DNA of 64,000 bases from Pantoea deleyi (GTDB lineage: Bacteria > Pseudomonadota > Gammaproteobacteria > Enterobacterales > Enterobacteriaceae): positions 1,054,001 to 1,118,000 of the forward strand of contig NZ_CP071405.1 of NCBI RefSeq assembly GCF_022647325.1. The letters run 5' to 3'. The position numbers and the translations under genes are program-made. The notes beneath the pieces were generated by a model, which was not told the DNA's origin, searched no databases, and worked only from the letters and a program-made list of their open reading frames with translations. Within the stretch, counting starts at the first letter, position 1, and each line of letters opens with the position of its first letter. Below are positions 5,105 through 23,184 of the stretch, piece after piece.

Positions 5105-5842
5105 ATGTTGCAAAATATCCGTATCGTGCTGGTCGAAACTTCCCATACCGGTAACATGGGTTCCGTGGCCCGCGCCATGAAAACCATGGGGTTAACCAAC
5201 CTCTATCTGGTGAATCCGCTGGTCAAGCCTGACTCCCAGGCGATCTCCCTGGCGGCCGGTGCCAGCGATGTGATCGGCGACGCTAAAATCGTCGACTCGC
5301 TGGATGAGGCAATTGCCGGATGCAGTCTGGTGGTGGGCACCAGCGCCCGTTCCCGTTCGCTGCCCTGGCCGATGCTGGATGGACGCGAATGTGGCGTGAA
5401 AAGTGTGGAAGAGGCCCAGCAGGCACCGGTTGCGCTGGTATTTGGTCGCGAACGTGTTGGCCTGACCAACGAAGAGCTGCAGAAGTGCCACTATCATGTC
5501 GCCATTCAGGCGAACCCGGAATACAGCTCGCTGAATCTGGCGATGGCCGTGCAGATCATCGCCTATGAAGTGCGTATGGCCTGGCTGCAGTCGCAGGAGC
5601 AGGCGACCCCGCAACCGACGTATGAAGCGTCTCCCTATCCGCTGGTCGATGACCTCGAACGCTTCTATCAGCATATGGAACAGATGATGCTGAACAGCGG
5701 CTTTATCCGTGAAGCGACGCCGGGCCAGGTGATGAGCAAACTGCGTCGTCTCTACACCCGTGCGCGTCCGGAACGCGACGAACTGAATATCCTGCGCGGG
5801 ATGCTGTCGTCGTTTGAAAAGCCGAAAATCGAGAAAAAATAA
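5105..5842 (+). CDS. trmJ: tRNA (cytidine/uridine-32-2'-O)-methyltransferase TrmJ
   Basis: 245 residues (E. coli 246). A SPOUT-fold methyltransferase that 2'-O-methylates position 32 in several tRNAs using SAM. The N-terminal block [20 protein letters not shown] is typical, as are [17 protein letters not shown] near 110 and [16 protein letters not shown] near 140, which form the SAM-binding knot. The C-terminal extension (about 175-245) contains the [18 protein letters not shown] block. It is divergent from suhB, and its stop at 5842 lies only 7 bases before the first IscR-type box. Confidence 0.96.
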
Positions 5843-5849
5843 GCAGATA

Positions 5850-5924
5850 ATAGTTGAGTAAATTACCTGGTTAAATACCTGACTGATTTACCAGGTTAAA
5901 TAGTTGACCAATTTACTCAGGAAT
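5850..5924 (+). promoter_or_regulatory. iscR promoter region with three phased IscR type-1-like boxes
   Basis: Three related 25-bp units start at 5850, 5875 and 5900, immediately head to tail. Each begins ATA(G/C)(T/C)TGA and has a WWTTAC centre. Unit 2 matches the first 16 positions of the known type-1 IscR consensus; unit 3 matches at about 22 of 25 positions and unit 1 at about 19 of 25. In E. coli, [2Fe-2S]-IscR represses its own promoter through such sites. The exact promoter hexamers are not certain; TTGACC at 5903 is a possible -35. Confidence 0.75.
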
Positions 5925-5987
5925 GTCAGACTTCAGCGCATCTGTTGCTAATCCTCCGATAACCGGACGCTATTGAGGTCGTATGCT

Positions 5988-6485
5988 ATGAGACTGACAT
6001 CCAAAGGACGTTATGCCGTTACTGCCATGCTGGACGTTGCCCTTCACTCTCATGAAGGCCCCGTTCCGCTGGCTGATATTTCTGAACGTCAGGGCATTTC
6101 GCTCTCCTATCTGGAGCAGTTATTCTCGCGGCTGCGTAAAAACGATCTCGTCTCCAGCGTCCGTGGTCCGGGCGGCGGTTATCTGCTGGGCAAAGCCTCA
6201 AACACCATCTCTGTCGGGGAAGTGATCACCGCGGTGGATGAGTCCGTCGATGCCACGAAATGTCAGGGCAAAGAGGGCTGCCAGGGGGGCGAGCGTTGCC
6301 TGACCCACGTCCTGTGGCGTGACCTGAGCGTGCGCATTAGCGATTTCCTGAACAACATTACGCTGGCGGAGCTGGTGAACAATCAGGAGATCCTGGATGT
6401 GGCCGACCGTCAGAATGCGATCGACAATCGTCGCTTCCAGAGCCCGCGCGCTCAGGAAATTAACGTCAACCAGCGCGCCTCCTGA
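5988..6485 (+). CDS. iscR: Rrf2-family Fe-S regulator IscR
   Basis: 165 residues (E. coli 162), starting at [11 protein letters not shown]; a TTG 15 bases upstream is open but not needed. Winged-helix residues 1-80 are nearly identical to E. coli, including [13 protein letters not shown] and the wing [11 protein letters not shown]. The cluster ligands Cys92, Cys98, Cys104 and His107 are all present ([16 protein letters not shown]). Only the last 25 or so residues diverge. IscR senses [2Fe-2S] status and represses the isc promoter, and as apo-protein activates suf in E. coli. Intact ligands and intact boxes mean the sensor is functional even though the assembly genes it normally controls are missing downstream. 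Confidence 0.95.
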
Positions 6486-6573
6486 TCCCCGCTGTTCCGG
6501 CCCTAACTGCTAACGCGGTCAGGGCCGAATCTGCTATAAAGACGTATGATTTTTAATACGGAGCTGTAGCGCA

Positions 6574-7734
6574 ATGAAATTACCGATTTACCTGGATTAT
6601 GCCGCCACCACGCCGGCCGATCCGCGTGTGGCCAGCAAAATGATGCAGTTTCTGACGCTGGATGGCACGTTCGGTAATCCGGCCTCGCGATCGCACCGTT
6701 TTGGCTGGCAGTCTGAAGAGGCGGTGGATGTCGCCCGCAATCAGATCGCCGAACTGGTCAATGCCGATCCGCGCGAAATCGTCTTCACGTCCGGCGCCAC
6801 CGAATCGGACAACCTCGCGATCAAAGGGGCAGCCCATGCCCATCAGGCGCGCGGCAGACACATCATCACCAGCCAGACAGAACATAAAGCGGTGCTCGAC
6901 AGCTGCCAGCAGCTTGAGCGCGAAGGCTTTACGGTCACCTACCTGACCCCGGCTGCAGATGGCATTATTTCCCCCGACCAGCTGCGTGCGGCGCTGCGTG
7001 ATGACACCATTCTGGTCACCCTGATGCAGGTGAATAATGAAACCGGCGTGATTCAGGATATTGCCGCCTTTGGCGAACTCTGCCGCGAACGGGGGATTCT
7101 GTTTCATGTGGACGCGACCCAGAGCGTCGGCAAACTGCCGATCGATCTCAGCGTGCTGCCGGTGGACCTGATGTCCTTCTCTGCCCACAAACTTTACGGT
7201 CCGAAAGGGATCGGCGCGCTCTATGTGCGGCGCAAACCGCGCGTGCAGATCGCTGCGCAGATCCACGGCGGCGGCCACGAGCGCGGTATGCGCTCCGGTA
7301 CGCTGCCGGTGCATCAGATTGCCGGAATGGGCGAAGCCTATCGTATCGCCGCCGAAGAGCGCGAAACCGAGATGGCGCGACTGCAGGGGCTGCGCCTGCG
7401 CCTGTGGGAAGGGATCAGCATGCTGCCCGGCGTCTCTCTCAATGGCAGTCTTCAGCAGGGCGCGCCGAACATTCTCAACCTCAGTTTTGCTGACGTTGAG
7501 GGGGAGTCCCTGATTATGGCGCTGAAAGATCTGGCACTCTCTTCCGGCTCCGCCTGTACTTCCGCCAGCCTGGAGCCTTCTTATGTCCTGCGGGCGATGG
7601 GGCTGGATGAGGAGCTGGCGCACAGTTCGCTGCGCTTCTCGCTGGGGCGCTTCACCACAGAAGAAGAGATCGACTACGCCATTGCCCTGGTGCAGAAATC
7701 GGTGACCCGCCTGCGCGCCGTCATGAAATCCTGA
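6574..7734 (+). CDS. iscS: Cysteine desulfurase IscS lacking the C-terminal IscU-contact tail
   Basis: 386 residues against 404 in E. coli. The PLP lysine Lys206 ([10 protein letters not shown]) and the catalytic loop [15 protein letters not shown] with Cys328 are in register with E. coli, and the match continues to the block [11 protein letters not shown]. The protein then ends RLRAVMKS, missing the last 18 or so residues (in E. coli the stretch LWEMYKQGVDLNSIEWAHH). That tail contacts the scaffold IscU in E. coli. No frameshift restores it: the bases after the stop encode nothing similar. IscS supplies sulfur for Fe-S clusters, tRNA thiolation (TusA, ThiI) and thiamine. The iscU, iscA, hscBA, fdx and iscX genes that normally follow are absent, so here it may serve mainly the non-cluster routes. 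Confidence 0.93.
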
Positions 7735-7893
7735 CACCCGGTCATAATCCGGAAACAGCGCCCTGTGATGCCGTTCGCTGGCAACCGCTGACGGAATCTG
7801 TTATCAGGTCTCTGTGAGTTACATTTAACATCTTATTAAAGCCGTTATAACAATCAGGCTGGATGAAACAGATAACGATTATGGAGCTTTTCG

Positions 7894-9180
7894 ATGACCA
7901 CACAACCGATGAACATTACGCTTAGCAGCCAGCCCGCCGATGCGCGCTGGGGCGAGAAAGCGATTCTCAGCAGCAACGATAGCGGCATGACGCTGCACCT
8001 GACCGGCGCGGATGCGCTGAATACCATTCAGCGTGCGGCGCACAAAATCGACAGCCAGGGGATCCGCCATGTGGCGCTGACCGGCGAAGGCTGGCACCTT
8101 GAGCAGTGCTGGGCCTTCTGGCAGGGTTTCCGTGGCCCGAAAGGCCAGCGTCAGGTTGAATGGCCTGCGCTGGGCGAGCACGAGCAGGCCGAGTTTGATC
8201 GTCGCCTGAAAATCGTCGACTGGGTGCGCAATGTCATTAACCTGCCCGCCGAAGACCTGGGGCCGGAGCAGCTGGCGCACAACGCCATCGACCTGATCAG
8301 CGACGTGGGCGGCAGCGCGGTCAGCTACCGCATCACCAAGGGCGAGGATCTGCGTGAGCAGGGCTATATGGGCCTGCACACCGTCGGCCGCGGTTCAAAC
8401 CGTCCGCCGGTCTTCCTGGCGCTCGACTACAACCCGACCGGCGACGACAACGCCCCGGTCTACGCCTGTCTGGTCGGTAAAGGCATCACCTTTGACACCG
8501 GCGGCTACAGCCTGAAGCAGAGCAGCTTCATGGATTCGATGAAGTCGGACATGGGCGGAGCGGCAACCGTCACCGGCGCGCTGGCGATGGCGATCTCACG
8601 CGGCCTGAACAAGCGCGTGAAACTCTATCTCTGCTGTGCCGACAACATGGTCAGCAGTAACGCCTTTAAGCTGGGTGATATCATTCGCTATCGCAACGGC
8701 AAATCGGTGGAAGTGATGAACACCGACGCGGAAGGGCGTCTGGTGCTGGCCGATGGATTGATCGACGCCAGCGAGCAGAATCCGACGATGATTATCGACG
8801 CCGCTACGCTGACCGGGGCTGCCAAAACCGCGCTGGGCAACGACTACCACGCGCTGTTTACCTTTGATGAGGTGATGGCGCAGTCGCTGATGGGCAGCGC
8901 GGTGAGTGAGAACGAACCCTTCTGGCGTCTGCCGCTGGCCGAGTTCCATCGCAGCCATCTGCCGTCTAACTTCGCCGATCTTAATAACATCGCCAGCCCC
9001 TCCCATGCGGCGGGTGCCAGCAGTGCGGCGGCCTTCCTCTCCTACTTCGTCAGCAATTATCAGCAGGGCTGGCTGCATATCGACTGCTCGGCAACCTATC
9101 GCAAAGGCGCGGTCGATCAATGGGCGGCGGGGGCCACCGGTCTGGGCGTGCGCACGATTGCCAATCTGTTACTGAAATAA
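7894..9180 (+). CDS. pepB: Peptidase B (leucyl aminopeptidase family M17)
   Basis: 428 residues (E. coli 427). The M17 metal site is clear: [15 protein letters not shown] near 197, the [12 protein letters not shown] block near 218, and [14 protein letters not shown] near 280. PepB is a cytosolic, Mn-dependent hexameric aminopeptidase with broad specificity. In E. coli it is the last gene of the isc cluster region, after iscX; here it follows iscS after a 159-bp gap with an ATG preceded by ATGGAGC. The gap shows no remnant of isc genes and may hold its own promoter. Confidence 0.95.
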
Positions 9181-22062: not shown

Positions 22063-23184
22063 ATGCATAACGAAGCACCCATTATCCGTCGTAAATCTAA
22101 GCGCATTTACGTCGGCAAGGTGCCGGTCGGTGACGGCGCCCCAATCGCTGTTCAGTCGATGACCAACACCCGCACCACGGACGTGGAAGCGACGGTAAAT
22201 CAGATCAAAGCCCTTGAACGTGTCGGTGTCGACATCGTCCGTGTCTCGGTGCCTACCATGGATGCCGCAGAAGCATTCAGGCTGATCAAGCAGCAGGTAA
22301 ACGTGCCGCTGGTTGCAGATATCCATTTTGACTACCGCATCGCCCTGAAAGTGGCTGAGTATGGCGTCGACTGTCTGCGCATTAACCCCGGTAATATCGG
22401 GAACAATGAGCGCATCCGCATGGTCGTCGACTGCGCACGCGACAAAAATATTCCTATCCGGATTGGCGTTAACGCCGGTTCGCTGGAAAAAGATCTGCAG
22501 GAAAAGTATGGCGAACCGACCCCGCAGGCGCTGCTGGAATCCGCCATGCGCCACGTCGACCATCTTGACCGCCTTAACTTCGACCAGTTTAAAGTCAGCG
22601 TAAAAGCGTCTGACGTCTTCCTGGCCGTCGAATCCTATCGTCTGCTGGCAAAGCAGATTGAACAGCCGCTGCATCTCGGCATCACCGAAGCGGGCGGCGC
22701 GCGTGCCGGTGCGGTGAAATCCGCGATCGGACTCGGCCTGCTGCTTTCCGAGGGCATCGGCGATACGCTGCGTATCTCGCTGGCGGCCGATCCGGTAGAA
22801 GAGGTCAAAGTCGGCTTCGACATTCTGAAGTCACTGCGCATCCGTTCCCGTGGGATTAACTTCATCGCCTGTCCGACCTGTTCACGTCAGGAGTTCGACG
22901 TTATCGGCACGGTCAACGCGCTGGAGCAGCGTCTGGAAGATCTGATCACCCCGATGGATGTCTCTATCATCGGCTGCGTGGTTAACGGACCGGGCGAAGC
23001 GACGCTCTCGACGCTGGGCGTGACCGGCGGCAGTAAGAAGAGCGGCTTCTACGAGGATGGCGTGCGTCAGCGCGATCGTCTCGACAACGACGATATGATC
23101 GACCAGCTGGAAGCGCGTATTCGTGCCAAAGCGTCGATGCTGGATGCCAGCCGCCGTATCGACGTGCAGCATCTGGAAAAATAA
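22063..23184 (+). CDS. ispG: 4-hydroxy-3-methylbut-2-en-1-yl diphosphate synthase IspG
   Basis: 373 residues from [13 protein letters not shown], matching E. coli start and length; the in-frame ATG 15 bases earlier would add MEKKY and is less likely. The [4Fe-4S] ligands Cys270, Cys273 (CPTC) and Cys305, and Glu312 (GCVVNGPGE), are present. It reduces methylerythritol cyclodiphosphate to HMBPP in the MEP isoprenoid pathway. It is an essential Fe-S enzyme and so depends on whichever cluster assembly system this organism keeps, since the isc locus here is incomplete. Confidence 0.97.

Follow-up and report, generated by a model that had tools for sequence, protein, structure and literature searches.

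The 64-kb window analysed here (64,000 nucleotides from Pantoea deleyi) contains the genes iscR and iscS, flanked by trmJ on one side and by pepB and sseB on the other (Table 1).

Table 1. Coordinates of the features of the iscR-iscS locus and of ispG, numbered from the first letter of the window
Feature	Position	Strand	Remarks
trmJ	5105-5842		Upstream of iscR
iscR operator region	5860..5930	+	Type-1-like IscR sites resembling those of E. coli; an ad hoc core pattern matches twice
iscR, [2Fe-2S] sensor-regulator	5988..6485	+	C92, C98, C104 and H107 kept; above the cut-off of the NCBIfam IscR equivalog
iscS, cysteine desulfurase, 386 aa	6574..7734	+	IscU-docking tail missing; TusA sites and catalytic residues kept; NCBIfam TIGR02006
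iscS 3' end	7699..7734	+	Only 11 residues and a stop replace E. coli residues 376-404
iscS-pepB gap, 159 bp	7735..7893	.	Position of iscUA-hscBA-fdx-iscX in E. coli; no remnant detected
pepB	7894..9180	+	Flank showing synteny with E. coli; followed by sseB
IspG gene	about 22066-23184		In the same window

In E. coli K-12, iscU, iscA, hscB, hscA, fdx and iscX stand, in this order, between iscS and pepB. The first-pass annotation had placed only 159 bp there in the window, which agrees with the end of iscS at 7734 and the start of pepB at 7894. A tblastn search with E. coli queries gave no match to IscU, IscA, HscB, HscA, Fdx or IscX anywhere in the window, the iscS-pepB gap itself gave no match to these six proteins at E ≤ 0.05, and an Rfam scan of positions 5700-8000 gave no match at E ≤ 0.1. 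The encoded IscR scores 221.4 bits against the TIGR02010 cut-off of 207.55; IscS scores 679.8 against 548 for NF010611 and is narrowly above the cut-off for TIGR02006 (650.8 versus 643.2 bits). IscS has 386 residues, compared to 404 in E. coli, and ends in RLRAVMKS, as expected from the earlier claim of a shortening by about 18 residues; a segment of the type of residues 376-404 of ISC-type IscS was not found, the tail being both short and diverged. Retention of Cys328 and of the pyridoxal phosphate lysine Lys206 was seen in the alignment of IscS sequences, and IspG is indeed encoded within the window. The closest named IscS is that of P. anthophila (94%).

We further examined the whole Pantoea genome (G000; 4.68 Mb, 100% complete, 4 contigs), carrying out the search for iscU or nifU, hscB and suf genes that the first-pass annotation had proposed, and adding iscX. 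No match to PF01592 (IscU/NifU/SufU) was found genome-wide, with 12 of the 14 control genomes positive, and the genome-wide search detected neither HscB (PF07743) nor CyaY (frataxin) nor IscX. The result that would refute the first-pass reading, isc genes elsewhere in the genome, was therefore not obtained for iscU/nifU, hscB or iscX. IscU and HscB are lacking from the genome, and HscA, Fdx and IscA from the 64-kb window. The SUF system, in contrast, is represented by all six genes, sufABCDSE, at a single locus (L178), with SufB, SufS and SufE above their NCBIfam cut-offs. Replacement of IscU by another U-type scaffold was considered and rejected, as this genome contains none; within the genus, PF01592 was matched in five of 60 genomes (L001-L005, 5.7-6.6 Mb), each time in a long ORF of 280-319 aa. 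These five are of the NifU type and probably belong to nif clusters, with an IscS/NifS-like gene nearby.

Gene content and the IscS tail among relatives

We examined 80 named loci encoding a close relative of this IscS. In the fetched stretch, iscU was present in 57 and absent in 23, the latter comprising 12 Pantoea-type loci (one labelled Erwinia sp. S63), three Rahnella, three Erwinia, Winslowiella, Pantoea sp. IMH and three insect symbionts. The genes are missing from the same place in all 12 Pantoea-type loci, which come from other assemblies, including that of the complete P. agglomerans HJS002, and which have iscS-pepB gaps of 60-173 bp. In all 56 ISC-bearing loci with a readable IscS (that of L053, the 57th, could not be read), the protein is 404 residues long and terminates in the pattern W-x-x-H (EWAHH in E. 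coli); in the 23 iscU-less loci it has 382-401 residues and lacks this end.

At the level of the GTDB family, PF01592 is present in 164 of 246 genomes. Among genomes G060-G300, 77 are devoid of it, 22 of these being at least 2.8 Mb in size and most of the others small, of the size of symbiont genomes. An IscS-type match, on the other hand, occurs in 391 of 392 family genomes; those with weak matches only are tiny and symbiont-sized, except for G418 (genus g140, 4.6 Mb, 330 contigs; E = 7e-23), where an assembly gap is probable. For a comparison of gene content, we used two sets of genomes: (i) an ISC-less set of 35, consisting of 31 genomes of at least 3.1 Mb and four that we classed as symbionts (G067, G098, G128, G232), in which absence of PF01592 is genome-wide for all but G350, G378 and G409, whose assignment rests on the locus and the lack of HscB, and in which the PF01592 matches of G200 and G277 were judged to be NifU-type by E-value (1e-46, versus about 1e-53 for IscU); and (ii) an ISC-bearing set of 31 genomes of at least 3.2 Mb, one per genus, hand-picked from the first part of the PF01592 list. 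HscB was found in 0/35 ISC-less versus 31/31 ISC-bearing genomes, CyaY in 0/35 versus 30/31, and IscX in 0/35 versus 29/31, whereas SufB/D was found in 35/35 versus 25/31. TusE is present in all 35 ISC-less genomes (40/40 when five ISC-bearing genomes are added), and a strong ThiI match in 34 of them (39/40 with the same addition), G232 having only a weak one.

Several single genomes deviate from these patterns. The six ISC-bearing genomes that lack SufB/D (G062, G071, G073, G093, G109 and G119) represent the mirror-image loss. CyaY is missing from ISC-bearing G081 (locus L229), and IscX from G090 and G127 (L250). A second IscS-like desulfurase, with 47-48% identity to the IscS of the window, is encoded at L177 (G174:C1:941443-942585) and at G277:C1:82000-83136; the one at L177 scores below the IscS, NifS and DndA cut-offs.

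The first-pass annotation had suggested asking whether the loss of iscU and the loss of the tail coincide on the tree. We built a tree from TrmJ, PepB, IscR and SseB, with IscS excluded, for 120 loci (116 different), after 12 of 132 loci were dropped because TrmJ or PepB was missing. The gene iscU is present in 74 and absent in 46 of these loci, and its state is concordant with the tail motif in 120/120. It should be noted that the motif was defined after the tails had been inspected; tail length, which does not depend on the motif, gives 404 aa for IscS in 72/72 ISC-bearing enterics. There are 7-8 changes of state on the tree, i.e., eight in total, of which seven are forced by well-supported branches, and the seven independent pairs are all concordant (sign test, p = 0.016). 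Clades without ISC are g114, Winslowiella/Erwinia, g65, g21, Pantoea, a group that we presume to be Sodalis-like, g118, and Rahnella with g25/g116/g104. L202 (g114) and Tatumella (L034), which has ISC, form long branches of unsure placement. L034 (Tatumella morbirosei) carries a full isc operon and a 404-aa IscS, though it stands beside or within Pantoea on the tree. A further case is genus g142, in which G200 has a NifU-type match only and a mildly decayed tail, while G294 has an apparently true IscU, judged by E-value; this contrast is possibly that of a young loss.

Contact surfaces of IscS and the direction of change

Partner sites of IscS are known from a structural study. Residues 309-316, 347 and 379-391 are contacted by IscU, whose binding is lost when 376-404 are deleted; the double change R225E/E227R abolishes binding of CyaY and IscX, not that of TusA or ThiI; W45, E49 and D52 serve TusA (all PMC2854127). 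We compared 72 ISC-bearing with 55 ISC-less IscS sequences from 13 lineages, five of which (symbiont or g147 lineages) were counted as independent without a tree test. As the background we used the 274 sites of the body of the protein that are at least 97% conserved among ISC-bearing sequences; at these, a mean of 2.2 lineages (median 1) have changed. The p values given below refer to six site sets, are uncorrected and treat sites as independent. The IscU sites of the tail have changed in a mean of 10.1 lineages versus the 2.2 of the background (p = 2e-10), the IscU sites outside the tail in 4.9 (p = 0.015), and the CyaY/IscX sites in 5.0 (p = 0.003). For example, 11-13 of the 13 ISC-less lineages lack L386, M389 and W401 in every sequence, 9-11 of them likewise lack the basic residues K92, K101 and R112, and three Pantoea sequences have Gln in place of R225 and Ala in place of E227. 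Conversely, the TusA sites tend to be less changed than the background (0.43 versus 2.22 lineages; p = 0.11, a trend only): W45, E49, D52 and R55 are kept in 55/55 ISC-less sequences, and D65, R220 and R237 in 54/55. The ThiI sites are, if anything, more changed (3.56 versus 2.13 lineages, p = 0.09), with F89, R116 and R223 varying, and retention of ThiI docking is therefore less clear. Cys328 and Lys206 are present in 55/55 ISC-less sequences, together with the active-site residues His104, Asp180 and Gln183.

The decaying basic patch should not be regarded as purely a CyaY/IscX site, because Fdx, TusA and ThiI are said to bind in its region, too (PMC4547094), and because a 2024 study reports that TusA, too, binds more weakly after the triple change R220/223/225E (PMC11302665). 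In the ISC-bearing genomes G081, without CyaY, and G127, without IscX, the listed patch residues are retained, which would be predicted if the ligands still present maintained the site. Outside its tail, too, the protein diverges faster after the loss: in a comparison of 46 ISC-less and 70 ISC-bearing loci, the distance of IscS residues 1-375 to E. coli was 0.66 versus 0.23 relative to TrmJ (2.9-fold), and 0.74 versus 0.30 relative to PepB (2.5-fold).

Two other readings of these patterns have to be weighed. If the deletion of iscU had clipped the 3' end of iscS, the missing tail would be a mechanical by-product and not a sign of relaxed selection, and the IscS of G178 (L181), in which SPLW is followed by unrelated residues and a stop, has the appearance of such an event. 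However, long degenerate tails occur in ISC-less G123 (404 aa, ending in SGHH), g118 (405 aa), G200 (401 aa) and G350 (404 aa), the tail varies among related species, and changes accumulate far from the 3' end, at K92, K101, R112, E227 and E347. Clipping is thus an unlikely cause, and the long degenerate tails and the changes at distant contact sites lead us to see tail loss as decay that followed the loss of IscU. Alternatively, SUF or another scaffold might still receive sulfur from IscS for Fe-S clusters, the surface of IscS having adapted to a new partner; such adaptation could also produce the higher divergence of IscS, and the recurrence of certain changes (F89A, K92A/E, R112L/A/Q/H) is in its favor. 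We consider this improbable, given that the changed sites carry a variety of replacements, deletion among them, as is the pattern of released constraint, that SufS and SufE are complete, and that the genome has no U-type scaffold.

Parsimony alone leaves the changes unoriented. Were the ISC-less state ancestral and ISC a late arrival by transfer, this would account for Tatumella, an ISC bearer that is adjacent to or nested in Pantoea on the tree, and transfer internal to the Erwiniaceae is possible. However, the outgroups Vibrio, Aeromonas and Oceanimonas carry iscU after iscS, as do the 57 named loci described above with their 56 readable 404-aa IscS, and HscA of the six ISC-keeping loci of the Erwiniaceae clade forms a single clade (support 99) instead of nesting within distant donors; on these grounds we reject a late gain from outside. 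Fossils at the deletion site also speak against late arrival, which we regard as very improbable. Specifically, a broken iscX was found in the iscS-pepB gap of Winslowiella L031 (E = 5e-10) and of G178 (L181; E = 4e-9), and a piece of the end of iscX is left in the gap of five Sodalis-like loci (E = 8e-4 to 0.01); in a control with 200 shuffled sets of the 50 gaps, one iscX match reached 0.01, and it was also below 0.001. An intact iscX in L031 and L181 was rejected, these being relics without an intact reading frame. The fossils of two clades imply that the operon was deleted in place there. Hence, the claim of the first-pass annotation that iscU to iscX are gone without remnant holds for the window, where tblastn detected none, but does not extend to the other ISC-less clades. 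Gaps of 446-792 bp, far longer than those of Pantoea, occur in L195, L198 (g118), L188, L189 and L192-L194, and only the Sodalis-like iscX piece is accounted for in them.

The single HscA clade and the ISC-bearing outgroups make acquisition from outside unlikely, so that independent losses are the best reading of the 7-8 changes of state. Some of the eight could be regains by transfer of isc within the Erwiniaceae; even then, four far-apart losses remain, in the Erwiniaceae, the Sodalis-like group, g118 and the Rahnella group. Finally, the living strain might possess ISC, the gap being due to an assembly deletion or local mis-assembly across 7700-7900. This is conceivable for an assembly of four contigs but is refuted by the relatives and can be practically dismissed, given the same absence in 12/12 Pantoea-type loci from other assemblies, the restriction of PF01592 in the 60 genus genomes to five NifU-type matches, the shortened and diverged tail of IscS, and the absence of HscB and of the unlinked CyaY as well.

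Probable routes of iron-sulfur assembly and thiolation after ISC loss

The cluster ligands C92, C98, C104 and H107 of IscR are intact in 50/50 ISC-less sequences, which agrees with the earlier suggestion that IscR stays as a sensor. Upstream of iscR, an ad hoc IscR core pattern, applied without a chance control, was matched in 47/51 ISC-less and 71/73 ISC-bearing loci, the match in L184 looking accidental. The divergence of IscR relative to TrmJ is mildly raised (1.52 in ISC-less loci versus 1.21). Because ligands and upstream sites are kept, IscR and its control of its own gene seem to outlive its former target genes. A scan for type-2 IscR sites near suf gave six matches in 12 kb versus 3.4 expected; as it also failed with suf of E. 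coli, it is uninformative.

We consider it very probable that Fe-S assembly in these bacteria is wholly carried out by SUF and that IscS is now a desulfurase for the thiolation of tRNA and cofactors under the control of IscR. The first-pass annotation had proposed that Fe-S assembly moved to SUF while IscS was kept for thiolation, and the complete sufABCDSE, with TusE in 35/35 and ThiI in 34/35 ISC-less genomes, supports this at the level of gene content. Three further observations go beyond that proposal: frataxin has disappeared as well, the change has occurred repeatedly, in several clades, and the CyaY/IscX patch decays. Gene content, the coincidence on the tree, the site patterns and the faster divergence of IscS are observed directly, whereas sulfur flow, the sufficiency of SUF and regulation are inferred, and we propose the following scheme: (i) the ISC module, i.e., IscU and HscB, at the locus IscA, HscA, Fdx and IscX, and the distant cyaY, was lost in the Pantoea lineage and, separately, in further SUF-bearing enteric lineages, with retention of IscS; (ii) the persulfide on Cys328 would be passed to TusA, and most likely to ThiI too, for thiolation of tRNA and cofactors, while SufSE-SufBCD would build the Fe-S clusters, SUF being the only general Fe-S machine found; (iii) with IscU, CyaY, IscX and Fdx gone, selection on the tail and on the basic CyaY/IscX patch would be lifted, and these decay, whereas the TusA surface stays nearly fixed; and (iv) the cluster of IscR would presumably be supplied by SUF, and expression of iscR-iscS should still follow the Fe-S status of the cell, as the ligands and apparent operators are kept, iscR-iscS now being mainly a sulfur-donor operon. 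A broader generalization seems to us about evenly balanced between right and wrong, namely, that ISC alone maintains selection on the IscU tail and on the greater part of the CyaY/IscX patch (which probably serves Fdx as well), that the TusA face is selected independently of ISC, that frataxin has no role in SUF strong enough for it to be kept, and that SUF-loaded IscR sets the supply of the thiolation desulfurase, not that of the cluster machinery, by Fe-S status.

Compared to the E. coli iscRSUA-hscBA-fdx-iscX system, the Pantoea locus has the same place (trmJ-iscR-iscS ... pepB-sseB), orthologous IscR and IscS, and the same catalytic, pyridoxal phosphate and TusA-contact residues; it differs in the absence of iscU to iscX, of the IscS tail and of CyaY, and in having SUF as the only general system found. 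Bacteria that rely on SUF alone and use a separate IscS/NifS-type desulfurase for thiolation are known, e.g., Bacillus with YrvO and NifZ. Pantoea resembles them in a desulfurase without a U-type scaffold that would be devoted to thiolation, with clusters that would come from SUF; unlike in those bacteria, the full ISC system has been lost repeatedly inside one family, and the ISC regulator, its promoter and decaying interfaces are left behind.

According to section 9 of a 2015 paper (PMC4440780), every species with CyaY has IscU, a co-occurrence with which the absence of CyaY from 35/35 ISC-less genomes agrees; repeated ISC loss in enterics and the IscS surface lie outside that section, and Erwinia, Pantoea and Rahnella do not occur in the main text. 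In 2024, CyaY was argued to regulate SufS also (PMC11446229). The absence of CyaY from all 35 ISC-less genomes, which bear SUF, suggests that regulation of SufS is not a strongly selected role of CyaY there, and has no direct bearing on E. coli. In the open-access literature (subscription papers being outside its scope) we found no account of repeated ISC loss in Pantoea, Erwinia and Rahnella. The relevant passage of PMC10946135 names IscU for a Variovorax genome only, not for Rahnella, and a review of Pantoea ananatis (PMC9231021) contains neither Fe-S nor isc nor suf as a whole word. Each element is known in kind, and the repeated loss with matching decay of interfaces makes this an unusually clean case.

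In E. coli, which has both ISC and SUF, the role for which a shared protein is selected is hard to tell. The independent losses of ISC give an evolutionary answer, as they may serve as natural knock-outs by which the docking surfaces of IscS can be told apart, and they bear on the purpose of bacterial frataxin and on the claim that frataxin regulates SUF. The ISC-less enterics include plant-associated genera of agricultural use, and the ISC scheme of E. coli should not be transferred to Pantoea, Erwinia or Rahnella. The gene content of these genomes suggests that enterics can live on SUF alone even with a genome as large as 5.9 Mb.
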